A program made the translations under genes and the position numbers. DNA of 64,000 bases from Celeribacter baekdonensis. Lineage in GTDB: Bacteria > Pseudomonadota > Alphaproteobacteria > Rhodobacterales > Rhodobacteraceae. A model generated the notes under the pieces. The model did not search any database. It was given only the letters and a program-made list of their open reading frames with translations, and was not told the origin of the DNA. The DNA is taken from the NCBI RefSeq assembly GCF_900102315.1, contig NZ_FNBL01000001.1, forward strand, positions 757,841 through 821,840. Reading direction: 5' to 3'. Each line of letters begins with the position of its first letter. The first letter of the stretch is position 1. Of the stretch, positions 49,569 through 64,000 are shown one piece after another.

Positions 49569-49731
49569 ACCGGATCGACACAGAGCCTGCGCTCAGCGCC
49601 TTGATGGCTTGGCAGTGCGGACTGGAAAAGACTGGAGAACTCTCCTTAAAACCCAATACGTTGCCATGAGTAATGACGGAGATGACGTCTTACCCAAAAA
49701 TCCAACAACAATATGAGGATTGAGCATATGA

Positions 49732-49865
49732 ATGCACGCTGGGATGATTCGGCGTGCGGCCTCTTCGGGTTAAGTGTCTGAATAATATAGACTTATCGAT
49801 GCTCTTTCGGCAAGGCATGGCAATTGCATGCACGCTCGGACCATAACCATGCACACTTCGAGGAC
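49732..49865 (+). repeat. Three ATGCAC-type 17-base repeats, candidate transposase sites at the left end
   Basis: ATGCACGCTGGGATGAT (49732-49748), ATGCACGCTCGGACCAT (49828-49844) and ATGCACACTTCGAGGAC (49849-49865) are direct repeats pointing into the tns module. The third copy shares TGC-N6-CGAGGAC with the terminal motif of the candidate right end at 54671-54687 read inward. Repeated sites at the ends are expected for TnsB-type transposases. The match is partial. Confidence 0.35.
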
Positions 49866-49875
49866 ACCAGAACAC

Positions 49876-49902
49876 AAAAAAGGCCCGCAATATGCGGACC
49901 TT
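49876..49902 (-). terminator. Intrinsic terminator after tnsC
   Basis: On the minus strand AAGGTCCGC and GCGGGCCTT pair (one G-T pair) around a five-base loop and run into a T-tract. It lies 33 bases after the tnsC stop and would end the tnsABC transcript. Confidence 0.85.
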
Positions 49903-49934
49903 AGCTCTTCCCTGATGGTGCTCAGTCAGTTTGG

Positions 49935-50927
49935 CTATGGTGACTTGGCTCTGGATTTTTTCTTTGATCGTGTCTTCTCATAGGCTTCCATCAACTTCGA
50001 CTGATCGAAGTGCCTTTGGTAGTCTGGCATCGTGAAGGGCGAGTACCCAAGGGGCAGTCCGGAAATTTTCGAGAACGCAGCAGAGAAGTGGTCGATCCTG
50101 CAAACTTTGTCAGGTTCATGTGCAACATGACCGAAGGCCTCGATCAGTAGTTCGATCACCAGCCCCCAACGCTGGCATGCTGCAAAAGCGAGGCGATGAG
50201 GGAACTCATCGGTCGCGAAGCTATCAACGTCGAGACCGGCCTTGTCTGCGTAGCTAAAGATGACTTGCAGCAACTCCTCCATGTCTGCCTCTCGGGTCAG
50301 GTCGATCCCTTCGAACGACACGGTCCGAAGCAACCTGTCGAGCTGCTCCTCCTTCTTGATGTGAATGGAAAGGCTGGGGATGCCGGAGAAGATCAACATC
50401 AACGGCCAATGCTGATCCTTGAGGAGTGACTTGAAGCTGTCGAGCATCTTTTGATTGGTGACGGAATCGTCCTCGGTGAAAACGTGCTGACATTCGTCGA
50501 AGTGAATACCAACAACACCTTGGAGCTCCGCACACTTGCGGACCTTTGACCAAATCTCGGCTTGCGAATGTCGGCCCCTGAGAGGGTACCCCAGCTCCTC
50601 AAGAATTACGATCCCGAGATCCTTCCAGGTGACCTTCCCGGATAGCAGACACGAAACGATGACTGCTGGACGCCCATCCGGCATGATCGTCGTGCCATCG
50701 TTGAACGCCTTAAGCATCGTTTGAATTTCGGTGGATTTGCCTTGGCGCGACTCCCCGATGACAACGAGGCCCCGCGCTTCGAAGCGCTCTCCGATGGATG
50801 CCTTGATGAAGTAGTCGCTTGCACACCACTTCATCACGTCTCTCAGTTGGTCTGCCCGACCGAACGGGAACCGAGCTGCCAGCAGTGGTGTCAGCATCTT
50901 CACAGCGCATCCATCGATGAAACTCAT
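49935..50927 (-). CDS. tnsC: TnsC/TniB-type AAA+ transposition regulator
   Basis: The 330-residue ATPase has Walker A G-E-S-R-Q-G-K-S at residues 58-65, Walker B G-I-H-F-D-E-C at about 140-146 and the basic C-terminal tail R-S-K-K-K-S-R-A. TniB/TnsC proteins select the target and activate the transposase. Start ATG 50927 shares one base with the tnsB stop; a GTG lies one codon earlier. It is the last of tnsA-tnsB-tnsC. TnsC normally works with a TniQ/TnsD target protein, which is absent from the window. Confidence 0.9.
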   Translation of the reverse strand: MSFIDGCAVKMLTPLLAARFPFGRADQLRDVMKWCASDYFIKASIGERFEARGLVVIGESRQGKSTEIQTMLKAFNDGTTIMPDGRPAVIVSCLLSGKVTWKDLGIVILEELGYPLRGRHSQAEIWSKVRKCAELQGVVGIHFDECQHVFTEDDSVTNQKMLDSFKSLLKDQHWPLMLIFSGIPSLSIHIKKEEQLDRLLRTVSFEGIDLTREADMEELLQVIFSYADKAGLDVDSFATDEFPHRLAFAACQRWGLVIELLIEAFGHVAHEPDKVCRIDHFSAAFSKISGLPLGYSPFTMPDYQRHFDQSKLMEAYEKTRSKKKSRAKSP

Positions 50928-53293
50928 CACTTCAACTCCTTGATATTGGTGGGCCGTGCGAGCTTGGCGGGTTTCTGGACGGCTGGCGCCTTACCAGCAG
51001 GCGCGGCCACGTGATCGGTATCTACCGGCGAGGCGAGGCGTTCGTCGGAACCTGTGTCAGAACTGTGACTGCCGGGGTCGTCAAATGGTGCAGCCGGTTC
51101 CGCATTCGCGACGCCATCGATAACGGACGCGCCTGCACCGATCTTGAACGCCGTCGCATCTTTTCCGAGGCTGGTGATTGCATCCGGAGCGGTTGTCCCA
51201 GCCAACGTTTCCGACCGGGCCATCCGAGCACCGGCGAATACGACTTTTGCCATCGCCTTGCACTCTTCGACGGTAGTGTAGCTGCGCGGCAGTTCGTGTT
51301 CGACGCCGATCGACGAGATGTCCTCGAAGCGACGCATTTTAACGGCCATCAGGCGGTCGTGGTAGATTTCGGTAACCTCAGGCTCCTCGCGTCGGTACTC
51401 CGCCATGAGCTGCAACACTTCGCCGAGGGTCATATCGGCGAAAACTGTCATCTGCAGGTGGACTTCGATGGGATCAGGTTCTCCGGGCATCAGCACCGTG
51501 GCAAACTTCAGGTCATCCGGATCCACGAAAACTTTTACCTTTCCCTTGAAGCGATTATTTTCCCGAGCGTGTTGGAGCTGGTCGGAATTGAACCAGATTC
51601 CCTCAAACACCCGGACGCCGTCATCAGTGGGAGTGGTGCTGGCCTCCCACCCAAGGTGAATTCGCCGGGTGTTCGGATCCGGCATCCTCACCTGCCTCCG
51701 AGCCACATTGATCGCGTCGTACACATCGCGAGGACGGCGACCACCCATGCCGACGCCATAGTTACGCTCGAAAGGATATTCGTCGACCAGATACCTAGTA
51801 AGCATTCCATAGAGCAGCTCTACGTCGACCACCCCATTCTTGATGGCGTCATAGCCCGGAATGTCCCCAGGGCGTCGTCCGGTGTAGCCAGGCATTACCT
51901 TGAAGAACCGTGACTCGAGCGTCCCAAAGAGACGTTCATCATGCGCCCGGTCTTTCGGAGAGTAAGTTCGCGTGATGCCATTAATGGTGCCCATCCCCAT
52001 CAGAGCTTTGATGACCGGTACATTGCGAAGTCCGGTTCCGTTGTCGTTGCGCAAAAAGTGAATGCCACAACCCCGTGCCGCTTTATTCATGCAGCCGTAG
52101 CGGCGCTCCTCGCGGGTCTTGTCGCGTGTTGCCATGCGCAGGAGTGCGAGGGTCGCCTCCGCGTTCGGGTTCTCCGCAATAATCCAGGCGAGTGGCATGC
52201 TACTCGCAACATCGAAGAGGATCAGAATGTGCAGCCGTTTGCGGATATACTTATCTGCAGCCTCGTAGGCGTCCTTCTCATCTTGTGAAAGGGTATGCCA
52301 AAAGCCTTTGAGTTTCGCCGCGGCTACCATGGAGAATTTCTGCTCATCCATGCCGCAGAGCTCGCCGATCATCAGGGCGCGAACATCTGTGCTCCCTCTT
52401 CCTCTTTTCCGTTTGGTCTCCCGCATGCCTTCGGTTGCAATCATGTATTCTGTAGGCGTGAGGAGCATATCGCGGTGCCGCGCCAGCGACTTTGCCGCGG
52501 GCACGATCAACTCGGGCAAGTCGTTGATAGTTCGGACTTCGTTCTCCTGGTGGATCAGTGTTTGCAACAGGTCCAGGACGTTTGAAACGCCGGTTTTTTT
52601 CGCATCCAGGCCAATACGTTCCCAGGCCTCAGTCATCAGCTCTCGAAGCCGTGGGCACAGCCGCGGCTTTCGGTTTCCACGGTCATGCCAGAGAGGCACC
52701 AATGCTTCTCTGACCCCACCACCCTCCGAGCCTCCCCCGGAAATCTCCTCCTCTTCTTGTAAGGCCTTAAATCTATTGTAGTAATCCATGATTGTTCGGC
52801 CTTTGTAGAGGATCCAGCCGGTGGTCTTTCCGCCCCCGCGCAGTGGGTTGGTCCGGACTGACTCACCCAAAAGCAGCGTCATTTGCTGCGCGATGAACGC
52901 GCGGGCGTGGTCCTTGTTCAAAGCGCGGCCGGAGGGCTTATACGCAGCGTCCTTCTCTTGCTGCAGAGCAACATAGATATCCGCAGCTTCGCACATGGCT
53001 GCGTGGAAGCGCGCCTGAGCTCTCTGTTGCGAATTGGGCAAAGCTTCGACAGAGGTATATCCGCCAAGACGCAAATTGGGACGATCGCTCGTTGCGGTCG
53101 GGGCGGCATTGATCCTTGCGCCAGGGAGTTTGAGATACTCAACCAGGCGCGCAAATGTAACGACAGTTTCTACACCGTCCTCGAGGCGAACCATAGAATA
53201 TCCGACGTCCGTGGTGCCCGTGACCACCATAGGACGATGCAACAGAGAAACTTCGGAACCGGGCGGGAAATTGTAGCGTGGGGCCGTGGTCAT
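50927..53293 (-). CDS. tnsB: TnsB/TniA-type DDE transposase
   Basis: The 788-residue transposase has a Mu-type integrase core. Catalytic acidic residues are probably D316 (C-G-M-D-E-Q-K-F), D417 (L-R-N-D-N-G-T-G) and E453 (H-D-E-R-L-F-G-T-L), with 35 residues between the last two as in D35E enzymes. A beta-barrel follows (about 540-620), then a low-complexity tail with A-P-A-G-K-A-P that would contact TnsC. ATG 53293 overlaps the tnsA stop by four bases. The core looks intact, so the element may be active. Confidence 0.92.
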   Translation of the reverse strand: MTTAPRYNFPPGSEVSLLHRPMVVTGTTDVGYSMVRLEDGVETVVTFARLVEYLKLPGARINAAPTATSDRPNLRLGGYTSVEALPNSQQRAQARFHAAMCEAADIYVALQQEKDAAYKPSGRALNKDHARAFIAQQMTLLLGESVRTNPLRGGGKTTGWILYKGRTIMDYYNRFKALQEEEEISGGGSEGGGVREALVPLWHDRGNRKPRLCPRLRELMTEAWERIGLDAKKTGVSNVLDLLQTLIHQENEVRTINDLPELIVPAAKSLARHRDMLLTPTEYMIATEGMRETKRKRGRGSTDVRALMIGELCGMDEQKFSMVAAAKLKGFWHTLSQDEKDAYEAADKYIRKRLHILILFDVASSMPLAWIIAENPNAEATLALLRMATRDKTREERRYGCMNKAARGCGIHFLRNDNGTGLRNVPVIKALMGMGTINGITRTYSPKDRAHDERLFGTLESRFFKVMPGYTGRRPGDIPGYDAIKNGVVDVELLYGMLTRYLVDEYPFERNYGVGMGGRRPRDVYDAINVARRQVRMPDPNTRRIHLGWEASTTPTDDGVRVFEGIWFNSDQLQHARENNRFKGKVKVFVDPDDLKFATVLMPGEPDPIEVHLQMTVFADMTLGEVLQLMAEYRREEPEVTEIYHDRLMAVKMRRFEDISSIGVEHELPRSYTTVEECKAMAKVVFAGARMARSETLAGTTAPDAITSLGKDATAFKIGAGASVIDGVANAEPAAPFDDPGSHSSDTGSDERLASPVDTDHVAAPAGKAPAVQKPAKLARPTNIKELK

Positions 53294-54069
53294 GCCGCGA
53301 CCCCAATCTGCGAATACTCCCAGAGAACATGGTCCAGGTTCGCGTGGAGCAGGCCACGTGCAACCAGTCGGTAGCAAGCTTGAAACGCGCGATCTTGCGA
53401 AATCGGCACGTGCGGAAAAAGATCCTGCATATAGTAGAGAGTCCGCAGCCGACGGGCGGTTTCCAGAACGAGGGTGTCTGCCTCTTCATCCTCATCAAAG
53501 AACAAAAGGTACATGCGGGACAGGTTCTCACGACGCTGTCGCGTGTAATCGTTAGCATTCACGACAATCAGATCATCAGCTGCATCCTCCGGGGTTGCAG
53601 CGATCACTTCCTGAATGTCCCGCGTGGTATGTGGCTTCTGAAGGCTGCCCTCATGGCGAACAAACACGAGGCGCCGATGCCCGGACCGGAATGTCACAAG
53701 CAAATCATGGGTGTAGTCCCGGGGTTTGCCTTCCGAGTCGGTGTAGGTGACCTCGACAGGCTGGAAATGCAAATCATAGACATCTTGGGACATAAGGTAC
53801 TGCATAGAAACCACCGCTTCTGCGGCACTTTCTGCAATCCCCACCTTGGGCATGTTGTTGTTCGCCTCCGTGCGATAGGGGATGAACACCTTGTGGCTGC
53901 TGTTGCTTCGGGAGCTCGGATTGCGCACCCCATCAAACGGCAGGACATCATGGATTTCCCCCAATTCGATCTCATCCATTTTGGGGAGCGTCTTGGGGGC
54001 GTAGAGCCACGTGTCGTTGTCTTTGACCATTTCGATATGGTCGGAATAGTTTCGCTTCTTGCGGGTCAT
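53290..54069 (-). CDS. tnsA: TnsA-like transposon endonuclease
   Basis: The 259-residue protein (ATG 54069, preceded by GAGAGGCG) has the TnsA nuclease pattern: E80 and E84 in A-E-S-A-A-E-A-V, Q-P at about 103-104, D122 in Y-T-H-D-L-L-V, then L-V-F-V-R-H-E. The position of the usual catalytic lysine (E-V-K) holds R138, so cleavage activity is uncertain. TnsA cuts the 5' ends so the element moves by cut-and-paste. It overlaps tnsB by four bases. A cluster of GCGAAA repeats lies upstream (54595-54687). Confidence 0.87.
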   Translation of the reverse strand: MTRKKRNYSDHIEMVKDNDTWLYAPKTLPKMDEIELGEIHDVLPFDGVRNPSSRSNSSHKVFIPYRTEANNNMPKVGIAESAAEAVVSMQYLMSQDVYDLHFQPVEVTYTDSEGKPRDYTHDLLVTFRSGHRRLVFVRHEGSLQKPHTTRDIQEVIAATPEDAADDLIVVNANDYTRQRRENLSRMYLLFFDEDEEADTLVLETARRLRTLYYMQDLFPHVPISQDRAFQACYRLVARGLLHANLDHVLWEYSQIGVAA

Positions 54070-54805
54070 TTTATCGCCTCTCAGCTGCCAGCAGCTTCCC
54101 AAGTGGGGCGTTGCCGGATTCTTTGTTCGTATCCCGAGCGTTGGACGGTCTGTCCGTGGCTCGCTGTTGTCCGGAACCCGTGGCGGTAGAAAATCAGGCA
54201 GCTAGAATGCTGCGGACAGATGTCTCCGGCTACGCCCTGACGGAGCGCATTGGATGTTCCAGGAATGTTGATGTCGGTCTTGTCTGCTGACCAAGCTCAT
54301 GAATGCTGTGTGTATGAGCGATCCCCAGCAGAAGTGCCGGGCTTCAGAGAGGATCGGCGACAGACCATTCATCCGTTGAAATCACGGACATCCGAGGCTA
54401 TCTTACCCGTATGTACTGACCGGGCTTTGATCCTGTCTCTGGAGGCCACCGTCTTGCGAGGGCGGGGGCCTCCTACATCTCGCTGTATTGATCTCCTTTC
54501 GACCTTTCGTGCGACGCCGCAGGCCATAGAGCTGGCTGCCGCCTGTTTGATAAGCATGCCCGAAGGGAGCCTTCAAGGCATTGATTTAAATGGTAAAAGC
54601 GAAAAACTCTGCAAGTTCGTTTTTCGCAATCTTTTTTAGGGCTCCGTTCCTTCGTTTCGCATGTGACGTCCTCGGTTTTCGCAAACAACCTCCTTCTGGA
54701 AATCAAGTAGGGGCTGGCCTGCAGCTTTCACAGGGCCGTAAGCGCTTCAGGATGTCGGAATTTATACACTTCGCTCAGGTTGGACTGTTTCCGGATCGAC
54801 CAAAT
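54070..54805. other. Spacer upstream of tnsA with no confident gene
   Basis: These 736 bases hold the candidate transposon end (54595-54687) and otherwise nothing I recognise. A plus-strand frame of 129 codons (54250-54639) is open but has no motif, no ribosome site and runs into the repeat cluster; I do not call it a gene. The tnsA promoter should lie here. Confidence 0.55.
54595..54687 (-). repeat. Candidate Tn7-like right end: four GCGAAA-type repeats
   Basis: Reading inward on the minus strand the end would start TGTTTGCGAAAACCGAG (54687-54671), followed by ATGCGAAACGAAGG (54662-54649) and ATTGCGAAAAACGAACTTGC (54630-54611), then an inverted copy AAAAGCGAAAAACTC (54595-54609). A terminal TGT, repeated transposase sites within about 90 bases, and position upstream of tnsA match the right-end layout of Tn7-like elements. 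The partner end was not found with certainty. Confidence 0.6.
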
Positions 54806-55347
54806 CTAGTCTTCGTCAAAACCGTAGTGTGCTCTGAGATCGTCCAGCCGATCCTCCAGATAGTGTGTAATGTCCATTTCGTTCACACAAACCATGCCCC
54901 CCCAAAAGCCACCATACAGCTTTGAGAGCTCCCTAAGCATTGAGGACCGTGGTTGCGTGCGGGACCGTAGGAGAGCTTCGTTACCTTTCCGAACCTCTGT
55001 ACCGTTTGGATTTCCGTGCGCCCTGCAGCCATGGTCACGATGAGGAACTCCGCCCCCAGCATACATGATTTCAGACCCACTTTTCGCCTCGCCATAGGCG
55101 TTGATGACCATTGCGAAAATTGATGGCTGCAATGGGCGCATTCATACAAATTACGCTCTTTGATCAGCCAAAATTTTTTACTCCGACACCTCGGGCAGTC
55201 CCGTCCTTCGGGCCACAGGAGGGCCTCCATGCGCTCAACACACTCGATTTCCGTGACGAATAACGAATCGATTCCCCCCTCCGGGAGGCCCGTGCTGAGC
55301 AGTTTCCAATGCTCACGAGTGGCCTGTGGGGAAACGCTCTTCAACAT
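54806..55347 (-). pseudogene. Remnant of an IS1595-type transposase (N-terminal zinc ribbon)
   Basis: The frame 55347-54883 starts with an IS1595-like region: E-C-V-E-R-M-E-A-L-L-W-P-E-G-R-D-C-P-R-C then Y-E-C-A-H-C-S-H-Q-F-S, a C-x2-C...C-x2-C zinc ribbon. Homology-like text then moves between frames (a second frame 55141-54806 ends in L-R-A-H-Y-G-F-D-E-D), and the catalytic DDE part is missing. It looks like a decayed, truncated IS. A short zinc-ribbon protein made from the first frame cannot be excluded. Confidence 0.65.
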
Positions 55348-55633: not shown

Positions 55634-57742
55634 TTACCGCATGGCTGACGTACCCCTTTCCTGAACGGGAACTCTCGCCAGGTACCGATCAAGGTCATCC
55701 CCATAGAGTACCTTTGTCTGGGCGAGGTAGCTGGCCATCTCGACCAATACATCCCGGTGTTCAACGAGGAGGTTTCTGGCCGTGGTCTCTGCGCTCTGGA
55801 GGAGTTCTGCGACCTCTGGCAAGTGGCCGGAAACAGCTTCGCGCACCGATGATGGAGAGCCTGCTGGTGCCAGCCAGATCGGTCCGAGACTACCCATTCC
55901 AAATGAGCAAATCTGATTAGACGCCGAACGAGTTGCCTTCGCAATATCGCTATCGACCACCCCTCCCGACCCAACTACAATGGACCCATAGAGCAGACGC
56001 TCGGCTTCCCGCCCCGCCAGCGCGACGCACCGAGAGAGGTGAAGGTCGTTCTCTGTCTGCAGGACTCTCGTGACGGCAACCTTACACTCGCCACCCGAAC
56101 TGCCAATGCGGGCATACTCTATCGACCCGGCAGTCAGCGCAGTCGCGACGATCGCGTGCCCGCATTCATGGACTGCGAGCCGAAGCCATTCTTCATCCGA
56201 CATCTTAGGCGCATCACCTTCAAGTGCCGCGAGGACATCATCAGTTGTCATCGCACGGTTACCCCGCCGCGCAGTTGCGCCAGCCAGGCGAACTGCGGCG
56301 GCACAATCTGCCCCTGTTCGCCCAAGTGCCGCCGCGGCGCATGCAGTCAGATCAATCCCCGATGCAATGCCTCCAAGGTGTTGTCCAAGGATGACCTCAA
56401 GATCCTCGAAGGTGGGAAGGCCGATCTCGACCACCACATCAAACCGCCCAGCGCGACGGATCGCTGGGTCGACGAATTTCAAATGATTGCAAGCTCCAAC
56501 GACGATCACCCCTTCACGGTCGGAGATCCCGTCAAGCTTCTCTAGCAATGCTGCGATGGCTTTGACGTCATAAGAGTCATTGCGCCCGTCCCCACTAAGA
56601 TCCGTTCGCGTATAGAAGGAATCGACTTCATCGATGAAGAGAATGGACGGTGCCTCGCGCTTGGCTTCGTCGAAACTCTTCTCCATCGCGGTCAGAAAGT
56701 GACTTAAAGACCCGGCTTTTTGCCACTGATTGTAGCTGGCGACCACCAAGTGAACGCCAGCTTCGCCGGCGAGAGACCGCGCCAGCTCTGTTTTGCCTGT
56801 CCCTGCGGGCCCGGCAATGAGTAGGCCACGTGGTACGGCGTTCCACGAAAGCAGTCCCGCCTGCCAATCGCGAAGTGCTCCCAGCGCGTCTTGCGCTGCG
56901 ACCTTAGCGGCGCCGAGACCAACCAGGTCATTCAGCGGCACGACAGAACTGGGGCGCCAAAGTTTTGGTTCGGTCGAAGCCTCTTCATCCAAGCTCTGCT
57001 CCACGTATCGAGCGATCATCATCGGTACGACGTTGGGATCGCTCTGGCGAAAAGCGAGGACCACGCAGTCTATGTCACCCGGGGGCACAGCGCTCAGGTC
57101 TGGTACTCGAGATGCCAATTCTTCGATCTGCCCATCGGTCAACTCTGGGTACCTAATCGCAAATAGAACGGGCAGAACCTCGCGTTCAATACCCCCGATA
57201 GACACAACATTGGCGTCAAACATTGCGACTGCGGGATGCAGATCGTCGAGCGACGATGTCAGAAAGACGATGGGGTCGTCATTGCGTGTCATCGCGTCTA
57301 CGAGGCCATGCTCGAACGACGCGCGGCGCGGGTCCAGATTTGAGGCTCGTATCATTCGGAGTACATGGTGCGGTTCGCTCCTGGTGTCCCAGCTGAACTC
57401 AAAGTGATCTGGTAGGAGGCGTTTCCACGACCACGAGACGCGATGGGCGTCCAACGATGTATGCACGATCGTCGTGGCGCCTCGCTGCCAGATGTCGGCG
57501 ATATCCCCGGACTGAACACAGGCTTTTGCAACGAGGCAAAGTGCGGCAACCTGGGTTAAAGGCAGATCCTCTCCCGCAAGGTTACGGAAATCCAGTGCGC
57601 CCGACGCGGACGGAGCCGAGACGCCAGCCACACCGCCCTCGCTGCCGTTTTCCTCTTCAGGCGTATGTGCGGCCGCACAGAATCGAACTAGAGCGTCAAA
57701 CACGACGGGGCGCCAATCAGTTTCGGGGTGCTGGGTCTGCAT
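55634..57742 (-). CDS. Soluble FtsH-like AAA+ / M41 zinc metalloprotease
   Basis: The 702-residue protein has an unassigned N-terminal region (1-265, no membrane segment), an AAA+ module with Walker A G-P-A-G-T-G-K-T (311-318), Walker B I-L-F-I-D-E-V-D (367-374), sensor G-A-C-N-H and arginine finger R-R-A-G-R-F-D (429-435), and an M41 peptidase domain with H-E-C-G-H at 525-529 and a third ligand candidate D599. FtsH is normally membrane-anchored by two helices; they are absent here. ATG 57742 has AGGAG six bases upstream; the frame is open to 58072 but the extra part is not conserved-looking. It diverges from hsdM. Target unknown. Confidence 0.85.
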   Translation of the reverse strand: MQTQHPETDWRPVVFDALVRFCAAAHTPEEENGSEGGVAGVSAPSASGALDFRNLAGEDLPLTQVAALCLVAKACVQSGDIADIWQRGATTIVHTSLDAHRVSWSWKRLLPDHFEFSWDTRSEPHHVLRMIRASNLDPRRASFEHGLVDAMTRNDDPIVFLTSSLDDLHPAVAMFDANVVSIGGIEREVLPVLFAIRYPELTDGQIEELASRVPDLSAVPPGDIDCVVLAFRQSDPNVVPMMIARYVEQSLDEEASTEPKLWRPSSVVPLNDLVGLGAAKVAAQDALGALRDWQAGLLSWNAVPRGLLIAGPAGTGKTELARSLAGEAGVHLVVASYNQWQKAGSLSHFLTAMEKSFDEAKREAPSILFIDEVDSFYTRTDLSGDGRNDSYDVKAIAALLEKLDGISDREGVIVVGACNHLKFVDPAIRRAGRFDVVVEIGLPTFEDLEVILGQHLGGIASGIDLTACAAAALGRTGADCAAAVRLAGATARRGNRAMTTDDVLAALEGDAPKMSDEEWLRLAVHECGHAIVATALTAGSIEYARIGSSGGECKVAVTRVLQTENDLHLSRCVALAGREAERLLYGSIVVGSGGVVDSDIAKATRSASNQICSFGMGSLGPIWLAPAGSPSSVREAVSGHLPEVAELLQSAETTARNLLVEHRDVLVEMASYLAQTKVLYGDDLDRYLARVPVQERGTSAMR

Positions 57743-58271
57743 ATCAATCTCCTGGGCGAGCGGTATCGTTCGCGTAAGCCGCGTGCATTTCGGTTTCTGG
57801 TATTGGATGGCCACCAACTGGTGGAACATATGAAGAACATACCGCAGTGGCGAGGTCTTAAAAAGCCCCATTTGGAAGCTAACATATTGCGAAAAAAGAA
57901 GGTTTTTTGATTTTCGCGAGCAAGTGCGCCCCTCGTAAAGCGCTGACTCCAAGCCGGATTCTGCGACCTGAAGGGGATTAACGCCTACATTCGTAGAAAC
58001 CTGACGCGAAAAATGGCGTCGTGCGTGTGTGCGAAGGCAGAACGATGGCTGCTTTTCGCACGGGTGATTCACTGGGGGCTCGTCAAAGACATGTTCTCAA
58101 GGGGGGCGCAGCCACGCTCATGGCATGATCGCGACCGTTCCCAAGACGCACGCCAGCGCGGTACGAGGTCTCCGACGGAAGTGGCGGTCAGGCCAGCCGC
58201 TCCGCTGGTTGTTCGTTGCTCTCCGTGCCGAAATACCTCAAGTTGCGAGCAAATCAGACGAGAAGATTCCC
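57743..58271. other. Divergent spacer between the protease and hsdM with GCGAAA motifs
   Basis: These 529 bases have no convincing gene; short open frames lack ribosome sites. Five GCGAA(A)-type motifs occur: ATTGCGAAAAAAGAA (57886-57900), ATTTTCGCGAG (57910-57920), GACGCGAAAAATGG (58003-58016), TGTGCGAAGGCAG (58028-58040) and GCTTTTCGCACG (58051-58062). The first matches a repeat of the transposon end (54616-54630, inverse strand) at 14 of 15 bases. Promoters for both genes should lie here. Confidence 0.6.
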
Positions 58272-60746
58272 ATGCCTTTGACACTTGCGCAACTTGAGCG
58301 CCATCTATTCAGCGCCGCCGACATTCTTCGTGGAAAGATGGATGCGTCGGAATTCAAGGAATTCATCTTTGGGATGCTGTTTCTGAAAAGATGTTCCGAC
58401 GTTTTTGAAAAGCGGCGTGAGGAAGTGATCGGAAAATACGTCGCAAAGGGCGCTGATCGTGAGCAAGCAGCTAAAGATGCCGAAAACAAGGCGTGGTATG
58501 GCAAGACCGGAGAATTCTGGGTTCCGCCCCATTCGAGATTTGACTACCTTGTGGACAACGCCCACTTAAATGTAGGCGATTTTTTGAACAAGGCGCTCGG
58601 CGGACTCGAAGCTGAAAACACTGCGCTTGATGGCGTTATCAATCATATCAGTTTCACCAGAACTATCGGTCAGAGCAAGATCAGCGATACCAAGCTGCGG
58701 CAGTTGATACTGCACTTCCAAAAATACCGGCTTCGTAATGAGGACTTTGAGTTCCCCGATCTTCTTGGCGCTGCATATGAATATCTGATCGGGGAGTTCG
58801 CAGATTCTGCCGGCAAGAAGGGTGGCGAGTTTTATACGCCCCGATCTGTCGTTCGGATGATGGTGCGGCTATTGAAGCCATCCCTGAAGCATCGCATTTA
58901 CGATCCTTGTTGTGGCTCTGGCGGTATGCTGATTGCCGCGAAAGAGTACATTGACGAGAACGGGGAAGACGGCCGCAAGGCCGAGTTCTTCGGCCAGGAG
59001 TATGCTGGAACAGTTTGGTCAATCGCCAAGATGAACATGCTTCTCCATGGCATGGAAAGCCCGAACCTTCAAAACGAAGACACTCTCGGGGATCCAAAGC
59101 ATTTTGATGAAGAGAATACCGGCGAACTACTGCGCTTTGACCGAATCCTGACCAATCCTCCATTCTCAATCAACTGGGGATCGAAGGACAAGGACAAGTC
59201 AGGCAACTACCTCTGGGAACCCAAGTTCCCCGAACGATTTTTCCACGAGGTCCCGCGCGGCTCGAAGAAGGCCGACCTCATGTTCCTCCAGCACATGCTG
59301 CACGTCACCCGTGACGGCGGCATGATCGCGACCGTCATGCCCCATGGTGTCCTCTTCCGGGGCGGTGACGAAGCCAAGATCCGCCAGAAGATTATCGAAC
59401 GCGACCAGATCGAAGCCGTCATCGGCCTCGGCCCGCAGCTCTTCTACGGCACCGGCATCCCCGCCTGCGTCATCATCCTGCGCCAGCAAAAACATGACGG
59501 TGCGAAGCTCATCTCCGGCAAACCCGCCGACCGTCAGGGCAAGGTGCTCTTCATCAACGCCGACCGCGAGTATTTCGAGGGCCGCGCGCAGAACCACCTG
59601 ATGCCCGAGCATATTGAGAAGATCGTCACCACCTTCGAGGAATACCGCGAGATCCCCGGCTTCTCGACCATCGTCGACATCGACAGGCTGAAAGAGAACG
59701 ACTGGAACCTCAACATCCGCCGCTACGCCGACAACGCGCCGCCGCCAGAACCGCATGACGTGCGCGCCCACCTTGTCGGCGGCATCCCGAAGCCGGAGGT
59801 CGAGGCGAAGGCCGAGCTGTTCAAGTCCCACGGCCTGAACCCGATGGACCTGCTGACCCCGCGCGATGAACGTTACCTCGAATTCGCGCCACAGATCACC
59901 ACCAAGGCCGACATCAAACCGGCCATCGAGACCAATGCGGGCCTCATGGCGCGCGAGGCCGAGATTTGGGACAAGTTCAACGGCTGGTGGGCTGCCCACA
60001 CCGACGCCATCACCGCGCTGGCGGGGGATGACAACGCGACCGCGCTGATCGCCCTACGCGACGAGCTTCTGTCCAGCTTCTCGACCACACTCGAAAGCCT
60101 TGCCATGCTGGACCCGTTCACCGTGCGCGGGATCATCGCGCAGTTCTGGATGCAGTCGCGGTTTGACTTCCTGACCCTCATGGCGCGCGACACAAAGGGC
60201 GTTGTCGATGCCTGGCGCACCTCTATCGTCACGGCGCTGGAGGATAAGGGGAACAAGGAGAACCCGCTGGATCACAAGCTGGTCACTTTCCTGATGGGCG
60301 ACTTCGTGCGTGAGATTTCAGAGCTTGAGGCGCGCAAGGCGGAACTGGATGCGCAGATCAAGGCAGCGACGGCCAAGCCCGAGGAGGACGAGGAAGAAGA
60401 AGAAGACGCCGAACCGGTGGACGAGGCGCAGATCAAGCGCTGGAAGAAGGAACTGAGCGAGGTCAAGAAAACCCTGAAAGCCAAACAGGCGCAGTTCACG
60501 GATGAGATCAACGCAGGCGTTGACGGGCTGTCACCCGAGGAGGCGGCGGAACTGCTACTGAAGATCTTGCATGATGATATGCAGAAAATCCTGACCCGCT
60601 ACATCGCCGCGCAGCGCGGGCAGATCGTGGCGGCCTTTGAAATCTGGTGGGACAAGTATCGCGTTACCCTGACCGAGATCGAAGGCGCACGGGCGCAGGC
60701 GACCGATAAGCTGGCTGGCTTCCTGAAGGGGCTGGGGTATGTCTGA
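58272..60746 (+). CDS. hsdM: Type I restriction-modification methyltransferase subunit HsdM
   Basis: The 824-residue protein starts [13 protein letters not shown] and has the SAM motif D-P-C-C-G-S-G-G at about 211-218 and the catalytic N-P-P-F at 295-298 of N6-adenine methylases. A long C-terminal region includes an acidic run and coiled-coil-like segments (about 690-800), making it longer than classic HsdM (about 520). It methylates the recognition site chosen by HsdS. Composition changes near 59,200: the first third is AT-richer, the rest GC-rich. Overlaps hsdS by eight bases. Confidence 0.94.
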
Positions 60747-62004
60747 GACGAATTTCCCTGAAGGACCTATTGGCACATTTGTGGCCGCCCAAGTGGGCGG
60801 CGGCACGCCTTCGCGTCAGAATCCCGGCTTCTGGAACGGTCCCATCCCTTGGGCTTCGGTCAAGGATTTCGACGAAGGCCAGATCGAACTCAACGAGACG
60901 GACGAGTACATCACTCAAAAAGGCCTGACAGCCAGCGCAACGAACCTCATTCCTGCGAACACTCCAATCGTCTGCACCAGGATGGCGGTCGGAAGAGTGG
61001 CGCTTGCACCGATGGATGTTGCCATTAACCAGGACCTGAAAGCGCTCTTTCCGACGTCCTCTACGGACACACGGTACCTGCTGCGGTTGGCCGATTACGC
61101 AAAGCCGCGAGCTGAAGCCGTTTCCGTGGGATCGACCGTGAAGGGCATCAAGGTTGCGGACTATCTGAACATTCAAGTTCCGCTGGCGCCGCCCCCACAC
61201 CAATCCAAGATCGCCGAAATCCTTGATACGTTGGACGCGGCGATACGGGGGACCGAGGCGGTGGTGGCCAAGTTGAAGGCGATGAAGCAGGGGCTGCTGC
61301 ATGACCTACTGACCCGCGGCATCGACGCAAACGGCGACCTCCGCCCCCCACACCCCGAGGCCCCCCACCTCTACAAACAAACCCCGCTCGGCTGGCTGCC
61401 GAAGGGGTGGGATTGGGGCAGGTTGGCAGACTATTGTTCGCGCATTTGCGTCGGGATCGTAATTAGGCCTGCCGATCATTATGTTGACGAAGGTGTTCCA
61501 ACCTTCAGGTCCGCCAACGTCCGCGAGGGATACATATCGGAGAGCGATTTCGTCTATATCTCGGCGGCGTCAAACGCCTTGCTCCATAAGAGTCAGATCC
61601 GGAAAGGAGATATACTTACAGTTCGGACGGGCTACCCCGGAACAAGTGCGGTCGTGCCGGAAAAATACAATGGCTGTAACTGCGTAGATATTTTGATCAG
61701 CACACCACTCAACTCAGTTTCTTCAGAGTTCCTGTGTAGCTGGATCAACTCGCCTTTCGGAAAAGGTCAGGTCCTGAGTGGTCAAGGTGGACTGGCTCAA
61801 CAGCATTTCAACGTTGGTGAGATGCGGGAGTTGATCGTCGTAAAGCCGCTTAAAGCAGAGCAAGAAGAGATCACCTCAAAAATTGATGCGGCCGAAGTGA
61901 GAATTCAGACGGAGCAGAATTTACTCGCCAAACTCCGCCTCCAGAAATCCGGCCTGATGGATGACCTGCTCACCGGCAGGACGCTCGTCACCGCGCTGTT
62001 GTAA
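60739..62004 (+). CDS. hsdS: Type I restriction-modification specificity subunit HsdS
   Basis: The 421-residue protein shows two target-recognition domains (about 1-150 and 225-370), each followed by a conserved helical segment: [16 protein letters not shown] near 155-170 with [12 protein letters not shown], and K-I-D-A-A-E near 380 with [12 protein letters not shown]. It sets the bipartite DNA sequence. The recognition domains are less GC-rich than the conserved segments, as expected if they have been exchanged. Both domains are complete. Confidence 0.93.
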
Positions 62005-62019: not shown

Positions 62020-64000
62020 ATGGGACATGAATACGATGACGTCGAAAAGCCCTTCATCGACCAATGCGTCGCCATGGGCTGGACCGCGCAGACCGGCAGC
62101 AAGGATGAGCCCGCCCTGACGGGCCGCACCAGCTTCAAGGAGGTCATCGCTGAGGCCACGCTGCGCGAGCGCCTGCGCGCCATCAACCCGGGCCCGGACG
62201 GCCAGCCCTGGCTCGACGACGCCCGCCTGTCCGAGGCTGTCAGCGCGCTCACCCGCCACGGCCATCGCGGGCTGAAGGAGGCCAATCAGGCGGTCACCGA
62301 ACTGCTGCTCAAGGGCCTGACGGTCGAGGGCCTGCCGGGCTGGGACGGCGGGCGCGGCCAGACTATCCGCTACATCGCCTGGGACGATGTGGGCGCCAAC
62401 AGCTTTACTGTCGCGAACCAGTTCCGCGTCGACTGCCCGCCCGGCCATGACGTGGGCAAGGGCTTTATCATCCCTGATGTGGTGATGCTGGTGAACGGCA
62501 TCCCCGTGGTGGTGGTCGAGGCGAAGAGCCCCGCCATTCCCGAACCGCTGGCCGAGGCGGTCAAACAGCTGCGCCGCTATCACAACGCCCGCAAGGCCGC
62601 GCTGGAGGTCGAGGAGAACGAGGGCACACCTGCGCTGTTCGCCAGCGTCCAGCTGCTAATCGCCACAAGTTTCGATCAGGCCCGTGTGGGTTGCATCGGC
62701 GCGGGGCTGGAGCATTACGGTCAGTGGAAGACGGTCGTGGGGCCGGATGGCACGGGGTCGGAAGATGACGTGATCAAAGCCTTGGGCAAAAAGGGCCTGT
62801 CGGAACAGGAACGCCTTATCGCGGGGATGCTGCGCCCTGCGCATATGCTGGATATCCTGCGACATTACCTGTTGTTCATGAACGTGGGCGGTCAGACCAT
62901 CAAGACCGTCTGCCGATACCAGCAATACCGCGCCGTTAACCGCGCGCTGGAACGGCTGCGCAGCGGCAAGACGCGGCTACAGGATGGCGAGTATGACCGC
63001 CGTGGCGGTATCGTCTGGCACACGCAAGGCTCTGGCAAGAGCCTGACCATGGTGTTCATGATCCGCAAGATGCGGACGGATCTGGCCCTACGTAAGTTCA
63101 AGGTGATCATGGTCACCGACCGGAAGGACCTGCAGCGGCAGCTGTCGGAGACGGCAACCCTGTCCGGTGATGTGGTCGAGATGGCGACGAGCAACGGATC
63201 GTTGAAGAAGCTGGCGAAGCGCAAGGGGCCAGGCCTCGTCTTCGCCACCATCCAGAAATACCGGACCGATGAAGACGTGGCGGGGGTTACAAAGGGACCG
63301 GCCTTCGAGGTGCTAAACGAGGATGACACGATCGTCGTCGTGGTGGACGAGGCGCACCGGACCCAGGCGGGGGATCTGCACGCAAACCTGATGGCCGCAC
63401 TACCAAACAGTGCTCGTATCGGATTCACCGGCACGCCTATCATCATGGGAGAGAAGAAGCGCACCACTCAGATCTTCGGTGACTTCATCGATAAATACAC
63501 GATCAAGGAAGCCGAGGCCGATGGCGCAACGGTGCCGGTCCTCTACGAGGGCCGGACGGCCGAGGGTGCGGTGAAGGACGGCGCCACGCTGGACGGTCTG
63601 TTCGAGGACATGTTCCGTGGCCGCACGGATGAAGAGCTGGAAGCGATCCGCAAGAAATACGCCACCAAGGGCAACATCCTCGAAGCCAAAGAGCTCATCG
63701 AAGAGAAGGCACGTGACATGCTGCGGCATTACGTGACCAATCTATTGCCGAACGGATACAAGGCACAGGTGGTCGCCTACAGCCGGACGGCAGTGGTCCG
63801 ATATCAGGCCGCTTTTCTGGCAGCCCGTGACGAGTTGCTGGCAGAGGCAGCAGCGCTCTCTGACCCGGACAAGGCAATGGATGACGAGGTGCTCTGCACC
63901 AAGCCTGCCGCGCTTCAGGCGGTGGTACAGGCTTGGCGCTATCGGGACACTTTGGAAAAGATCGAGTTCGCGGCGGTCATGTCGGGGGGCAACAACGACG
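62020..64000 (+). CDS. hsdR: Type I restriction-modification endonuclease subunit HsdR (partial)
   Basis: The frame runs from ATG 62020 past the window end (660 codons seen; the full protein is usually about 1,000). The nuclease domain has P-D-V-V-M-L-V-N and V-E-A-K near residues 166-169. The motor has Walker A T-Q-G-S-G-K-S around 335-341, D-E-A-H near 443-446 and G-F-T-G-T-P. HsdR translocates and cuts unmethylated DNA together with HsdM and HsdS. It follows hsdS by 15 bases. No frameshift was seen. Confidence 0.93.
   Translation, partial: MGHEYDDVEKPFIDQCVAMGWTAQTGSKDEPALTGRTSFKEVIAEATLRERLRAINPGPDGQPWLDDARLSEAVSALTRHGHRGLKEANQAVTELLLKGLTVEGLPGWDGGRGQTIRYIAWDDVGANSFTVANQFRVDCPPGHDVGKGFIIPDVVMLVNGIPVVVVEAKSPAIPEPLAEAVKQLRRYHNARKAALEVEENEGTPALFASVQLLIATSFDQARVGCIGAGLEHYGQWKTVVGPDGTGSEDDVIKALGKKGLSEQERLIAGMLRPAHMLDILRHYLLFMNVGGQTIKTVCRYQQYRAVNRALERLRSGKTRLQDGEYDRRGGIVWHTQGSGKSLTMVFMIRKMRTDLALRKFKVIMVTDRKDLQRQLSETATLSGDVVEMATSNGSLKKLAKRKGPGLVFATIQKYRTDEDVAGVTKGPAFEVLNEDDTIVVVVDEAHRTQAGDLHANLMAALPNSARIGFTGTPIIMGEKKRTTQIFGDFIDKYTIKEAEADGATVPVLYEGRTAEGAVKDGATLDGLFEDMFRGRTDEELEAIRKKYATKGNILEAKELIEEKARDMLRHYVTNLLPNGYKAQVVAYSRTAVVRYQAAFLAARDELLAEAAALSDPDKAMDDEVLCTKPAALQAVVQAWRYRDTLEKIEFAAVMSGGNND

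Follow-up and report, generated by a model that had tools for sequence, protein, structure and literature searches.

A soluble AAA+/M41 protease, apparent cargo of Tn7-like elements, is probably repressed by LexA

Introduction

The well-known AAA+ proteases are housekeeping enzymes. The window analysed here, a contiguous stretch of 64,000 nucleotides, raises the question of what such an enzyme might do in a quite different setting: its reverse strand encodes a soluble AAA+/M41 protease of 702 residues (P0001; 55634..57742, ATG at 57742), with tns genes on one side and a divergently transcribed type I restriction-modification (R-M) operon on the other. The original prediction, made from this DNA alone, described the protein as FtsH-like with the membrane anchor missing, and proposed that it could be either a protease dedicated to controlling the R-M system or a stand-alone defence effector. 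Here we examine the domain architecture of this protein, its orthologues, its genomic associations and its upstream DNA, and weigh the functions that might be assigned to it.

Results

Domain architecture and distinction from FtsH

Both catalytic domains of P0001 are recovered by Pfam (AAA, 7e-27; Peptidase_M41, 9.1e-15). The AAA+ ATPase domain (residues 267-512; 56207..56944, reverse strand) displays the Walker A motif at 311-318, the Walker B residues D371 and E372, and Arg430/433, and is followed by the M41 protease domain (residues 513-687; 55682..56206, reverse strand) with H525, E526, H529 and D599, its zinc site being made up of HECGH and Asp599. The Walker A and B motifs, both arginines and the four M41 residues (H525, E526, H529 and D599) do not vary in an alignment (A1) that sets P0001 against 21 relatives, 22 rows in total, and omits five of the loci L027-L043 (L033, L034, L036, L041 and L043). 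Given these invariant residues, P0001 should be an active ATP-dependent metalloprotease, and the complete AAA+ module and zinc site read by the original prediction are borne out by both Pfam and the alignment. Outside A1, one relative (L041, 7752-9893) is without HExGH and is possibly an inactive protease, while another (L043) may possess a membrane helix.

A scan with a 19-residue Kyte-Doolittle mean finds no membrane-type hydrophobic segment in P0001, the maximum being 1.43 as against 2.74 in the ordinary FtsH that the same genome encodes separately (L002); the N-terminal membrane helices are hence missing, as had been claimed. Against the NCBIfam model for FtsH (TIGR01241) P0001 scores 174.6 bits and does not reach the cut-off of 600. 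In a tree of 51 AAA+M41 regions the FtsH rows (15/15) form one group with support of 100/100, and P0001 forms a group of its own with its three orthologues (100/100) on the side opposite FtsH, where 31 of the other 32 non-FtsH rows also fall, the exception being L042, which lies beside FtsH. The model score, the tree and the lack of a membrane helix together lead us to classify P0001 as distinct from FtsH proper, which agrees with the earlier view. An AlphaFold2 model built from 39 rows is confident over most of residues 266-696, and FtsH-type structures match it at Z 24.5-30 between residues 256 and 696, in a fold search that barely probed residues 1-262; a model built from two rows was discarded as unusable (mean pLDDT 38).

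The open frame extends upstream of the ATG to a GTG at 58072, which would yield 812 residues, and tblastn alignments in relatives enter this extension. This longer start was rejected, since the upstream DNA of the loci aligns with gaps of 10 and 1 bases, because of which the stretch between the ATG and 58072 is read as conserved control DNA and not as coding.

Soluble AAA+/M41 relatives often carry no label beyond 'AAA family ATPase', and the wider group has been little noticed because many of its plasmid members are labelled in just this way. Relatives without a clear membrane helix are also seen on viral contigs (L079-L084, L102, L110, L121, L132, L135 and L143), and in the plasmid matches H23, H29, H40 and H42 they are apparently split into an ATPase gene and a protease (or hypothetical) gene. 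GIY-YIG or metallophosphoesterase genes and DUF6634 recur near distant relatives (L065, L066, L070, L071, L074, L075 and L178).

A probable degenerate AAA+ half at the N-terminus

Residues 1-265 had been set down as unassignable, with structure prediction and a profile search suggested as the means to address them. Ten N-terminal regions returned no meaningful match to a known Pfam domain, and a PDB profile search with the N-terminal alignment gave as its best match an AAA ATPase at E 0.37, level with an unrelated chain; to this extent the earlier description stands. However, when the N-terminal regions of 38 proteins were turned into a profile and set against one built from the AAA domains of the same proteins, the two matched with a score of 29.4 (E 0.0011 for one comparison) over 43 columns, which cover the sensor-1 strand, the arginine-finger region and the beginning of the lid. 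As controls for this score, 100 column shuffles reached at most 17.2, the reversed profile 17.8 and the M41 domain 12.1; an earlier version built on the 22 rows of A1 gave a less significant match (E 0.012, 87 columns). At 129-255 the AlphaFold2 model has, with middling confidence, a stretch in which strands alternate with helices, followed by four helices; it does not resolve residues 1-128. Thus, the N-terminus probably contains a decayed AAA+ half at residues 128-255 (56978..57361, reverse strand), with the sensor-1 strand, the arginine-finger region and the lid helices in place and with no P-loop, the profile match being suggestive of this and not proof.

Orthologues and their Tn7-like setting

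Four orthologues, all of which are assigned to Roseovarius, were considered: that in the window and those in G005 (91% protein identity), R. mucosus (84%; added by a scan of genome contigs) and G011 (70%). Searches with the N-terminal region detected it in three of 20 genomes of the genus, its own included, gave only weak partial matches in two others among 394 genomes of the family, and found nothing beyond its own genome among 385 genomes of the class. No plasmid record exceeds 60% identity to P0001.

The location next to a tns module proved correct (tnsC, tnsB and tnsA at 49935-54102). These reverse-strand genes encode a TnsC/TniB-like ATPase (49935..50930; Pfam TniB), a TnsB-like transposase (50927..53377), which has no Pfam match but displays D389 (or D344), D445 and E481, conserved in four TnsB proteins, and a TnsA-like endonuclease (53290..54102), whose match lies below the Pfam cut-off. 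Between tnsA and the protease lies the gene for an IS1595-type zinc-ribbon protein of 154 residues (54883..55347, reverse strand; IS1595 match 4.9e-13), which is 79% identical in G005 and is probably a transposase remnant; a role for it as a Lar-like restriction-alleviation factor was set aside, the PHROG match (E 7.8e-4) being to a generic zinc ribbon and IS1595 fitting better. The approximate left end of the element is placed at 49717..49934 (no strand assigned), homology with G012 ending at 49717; the 8 kb read in G012 show no DNA match to the tns genes. TniQ is encoded past the window edge on the same contig, just after hsdR and a YgjP-like gene. It occupies two overlapping ORFs (L024 14866-16763), perhaps through a frameshift, the second having no Pfam match of its own. 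No right transposon end was seen before the contig ends, and an inverted-repeat search for the transposon ends yielded no convincing pair.

Tn7-like genes adjoin all four orthologues, in the form of tnsABC and TniQ for the window and G005, tnsABC for R. mucosus and TniQ alone for G011, where tnsABC was not found near the protease. Distances to TniQ, measured across 14 genomes, are 1.2-10.5 kb for three orthologues. Of 17 other genes taken as non-FtsH, a degenerate TniQ lies 5 kb from one and a TniQ 25 kb from another; of 14 FtsH genes, 11 share their contig with no TniQ and the rest are at least 240 kb from one. Several of these assemblies are in pieces, and where the partner falls on a different contig the pair is scored as unlinked. 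The repeated linkage to tns genes for which a survey had been proposed is thus seen throughout the orthologues but in few distant relatives.

Where the Tns proteins of these elements can be aligned, their identity is just ~22-35%, and the G005 TnsA shows no alignment to the rest, in contrast to the proteases of G005 and R. mucosus, which are 91% and 84% identical to that of the window. Furthermore, an element related to that of the window, at 65-71% DNA identity, is found in G010, where other genes, and not the protease, lie between tnsA and TniQ. That similar proteases accompany such divergent Tns proteins, and that the G010 element does without the protease, identifies the latter, as judged by genomic context, as cargo of Tn7-like elements.

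A conserved SOS box in the control region

A LexA/SOS box, GTTCTTCATATGTTC, is present at 57824..57838 on the reverse strand, -82 to -96 from the protease ATG; this is a new observation that was absent from the original prediction. Its pattern, GTTC-N7-GTTC, is that of the SOS box of C. crescentus (PMC9578287). The pattern is found upstream of the protease in 4/4 orthologues with its 5' end at -96/-97 from the ATG, and the half-site blocks TATGTTC are identical in all of them, with the spacer differing at two of seven positions. Over the ~300 bases upstream of the protease, 152 of 314 alignment columns are identical across the four orthologues, and both TATGTTC blocks are among only six identical runs of at least six in this alignment, which is effectively a three-way comparison as window and G005 hardly differ upstream of the gene. 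Further blocks identical in all four orthologues are TTCGCACA at -293, CTTTTTTCGCAA at -156, GCACGCGG at -44 and TTACGCGAACGAT at -35 (window 57743-58035).

The control region accompanying the protease gene (57743..58035, reverse strand) is conserved with R. mucosus: the interval from 55732 to 58035, gene included, shows 84.6% DNA identity, with the blastn match ending at 58035 for R. mucosus and at 57845 for G011, and covering only the protease gene and its upstream DNA. The divergent control region that the original prediction took to be common with hsdMSR is divergent as stated, but it stays with the protease where hsdM is absent, and on the strength of this conservation we assign it to the protease. 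A simple scan of the control region found no sigma-70-like promoter, and an Rfam search of it gave no match.

Boxes of the form GTTC-N7-GTTC also occur in the same genome upstream of recA, lexA, uvrA, uvrD/pcrA and three Y-family polymerase genes. The 15 regions fetched around such sites were chosen by likeness or by the presence of recA, and so not blind; seven lie upstream of confirmed SOS genes and the other eight yielded no gene confirmed as SOS. A matrix derived from the seven SOS-gene boxes, with the protease box excluded, ranks the latter 6th of the 100 listed sites (118 in all) and third among those that did not go into the matrix, of which one is identical in sequence to a site that did. 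The protease box scores 7.0 in the window, 4.2 in G011 and 2.6 in R. mucosus. The bare pattern shows no enrichment across the genome (118 sites vs 154 for the reversed control), and because it is so common the argument for SOS control rests on offset and conservation. Only L035 and L073, of 39 other relatives, possess a box with a score over -3 in the 250 bases nearest the start, which indicates that SOS control is not a trait of the wider family. Thus, a LexA box is conserved in the promoter region of the orthologues; LexA is predicted to bind it and to confer inducibility, and the protease is probably made upon DNA damage.

Association with type I restriction-modification

The genes divergent from the protease are identified by Pfam, on the forward strand, as encoding HsdM (58125..60746; the HsdM_N match starts only at residue 57, so the true start may be near 58272), HsdS (60739..62004) and HsdR (62020..64000, continuing to about 65286 outside the window). 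They belong to an 11.8-kb cassette (54245 to 66031) that is common to this genome (G000) and G005, is 89-94% identical where aligned, and comprises the zinc ribbon, the protease, hsdMSR and a YgjP-like metallopeptidase; in both genomes the adjoining HsdR is the only HSDR_N. Within the cassette most of hsdS has diverged (42% at the amino acid level; window 60739-62004 vs L025 3356-4687) where the DNA is otherwise 89-92% identical, as if specificity had been exchanged.

Type I linkage thus obtains in two of the four orthologues. The DNA read around the orthologues of G011 (19 kb) and R. mucosus (16 kb) contains no hsdM; the G011 genome (95% complete) contains no HSDR_N match, and that of R. mucosus contains one, which is distant and on another contig. 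HSDR_N is near none of 17 distant relatives (taken as non-FtsH), none being nearer than 700 kb on the contig. Of the plasmid neighbourhoods of distant relatives, 20 were opened, hand-picked from 60 of 977 records, and 19 are annotated; these include one with tns genes (H8) and three with a DNA methyltransferase or type II R-M, and none bears a type I R-M label. Because two of four versions occur without a neighbouring restriction enzyme, the protease is probably not a dedicated controller of that enzyme. The adjacency to hsdMSR that prompted the idea is real in two genomes, but the idea itself is weakened by G011, R. mucosus and the distant relatives, and may still hold for the hsd-linked pair.

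Discussion

A proposal for P0001 function

With its catalytic residues intact, no membrane helix, an SOS box, a Tn7-like setting and an occurrence both with and without R-M genes, P0001 is in our assessment likely to be a LexA-repressed soluble AAA+/M41 protease that is Tn7-like cargo and is made on DNA damage. Carried in this manner, it would be kept silent by LexA until damage triggers RecA-stimulated self-cleavage of the repressor, which would free the promoter and allow the protease to be made. The protein would then assemble as a cytosolic hexamer, in which the single active AAA+ ring would unfold substrates and the M41 ring below would cut them, with the decayed N-terminal AAA+ half potentially lying above them as a layer that does not hydrolyse ATP and chooses what is degraded. 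Its targets would most likely be no more than a few cytosolic proteins. The likeliest substrate is a native protein that acts on damaged or invading DNA, which would make the protease a damage-tolerance or defence cargo rather than a part of the transposition machinery.

ClpX plays a comparable role for Mu to that which a protease of the transposition apparatus would have here: made in the SOS response, it might degrade or remodel a Tns/TniQ protein or a repressor and so mobilise the element on damage. Tn7-like genes beside all four orthologues would suit such a regulator, but it is made less likely by how much its would-be Tns partners differ from one element to another, and further by the presence of TniQ alone near the G011 protease and by the related G010 element, which has tnsCBA and TniQ with other genes in the protease's place. 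We accordingly regard it as quite unlikely. It is more improbable still that the protease is an ordinary mobile-element passenger whose box is a chance match. Over 64 kb, both strands counted, ~2.25 occurrences of the exact pattern are to be expected and three lie in the window, but chance would hardly place it at the same offset with identical half-sites in every orthologue, nor give it so high a rank in the matrix search. A further point against the regulator comes from PMC12452197, which reports that a CAST is not under SOS regulation and cites the same for Tn7.

A role as an anti-phage or abortive effector, induced through the SOS response by the DNA damage that phages cause, merits more credence, though we would still bet against it. 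Tn7-like elements carry many defence genes (PMC8649781), and seven of the 19 annotated plasmid neighbourhoods (hand-picked, as noted, from 60 of 977 records) have defence-like labels, judged by their names; this sample, however, is biased to accessory DNA, and the PADLOC matches of P0001 are weak and confined to residues 299-487 in the AAA domain. Dedicated restriction alleviation, wherein the protease would on damage degrade the HsdR of its type I neighbour (or HsdM/HsdS complexes of that system) in a LexA-gated version of what ClpXP does for EcoKI, is an unlikely alternative: ClpXP degrades HsdR after damage (PMC12707154), and the divergent arrangement within a conserved cassette whose HsdR is the sole HSDR_N of either genome would accord with it. 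Against this, protease and box alike are retained in G011, a genome that gives no HSDR_N match, the R. mucosus match lies far off on a separate contig, the distant relatives show no such neighbour, and plasmid-induced alleviation of EcoKI in E. coli is independent of SOS (PMC11109961). For the hsd-linked version one might, doubtfully, go further and picture the cytosolic protease, gated by LexA and built as an active AAA+/M41 machine topped by an inactive AAA+ layer, as a dedicated restriction-alleviation enzyme under transcriptional SOS control, the same module having moved among unrelated Tn7-like elements as a general cargo for damage-triggered proteolysis. If that were true, damage that threatens self-restriction would at once switch on an HsdR degrader.

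Returning to the reading we favour, a LexA-repressed protease carried as cargo, a mobile protease under the host's SOS repressor would amount to damage-triggered proteolysis spread by transposons, and would join DNA damage, transposon cargo and, in some strains, restriction at one testable promoter. Among the literature matches listed, which comprised titles and the starts of abstracts and mostly excluded subscription papers, none joins a soluble M41 protease with R-M, Tn7-like elements or SOS.

Comparison with known systems

P0001 resembles FtsH, the membrane-bound AAA+/M41 protease defined by TIGR01241, in the order of its AAA+ and M41 domains, the HExGH motif, an Asp as the third ligand and the match in fold, but differs from it in having no membrane segment, an unlike N-terminal region, a score far short of the model's cut-off and a place on another branch of the tree. 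With the soluble AAA+/M41 proteins of alphaproteobacteria, plasmids and viral contigs it shares its architecture, a similar length, the lack of a clear membrane helix and one broad group in the tree; these are nevertheless just 24-34% identical to it over the alignment and mostly have neither a LexA box nor Tn7-like neighbours. The similarity to the IetAS defence system, which pairs the ATPase IetA with the subtilisin-like IetS, is limited to the AAA domain (63.5 bits), and no S8 peptidase, the family of the IetS partner, was found among eight window proteins scanned, so that P0001 is not counted as a member of IetAS. In lying beside tnsABC/TniQ together with R-M cargo, the protease fits the pattern of Tn7-like transposon cargo, although the main text of the survey of such cargo in PMC8649781 is without the words M41, FtsH, peptidase, protease and SOS. 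A precedent is presented by restriction alleviation through ClpXP, which likewise brings together an ATP-dependent protease, a type I R-M system and a link to DNA damage, with the difference that ClpXP acts on the R-M system and P0001 adjoins it, and that ClpXP is a housekeeping enzyme, whereas P0001 has predicted control by LexA and a putative targeting of HsdR.
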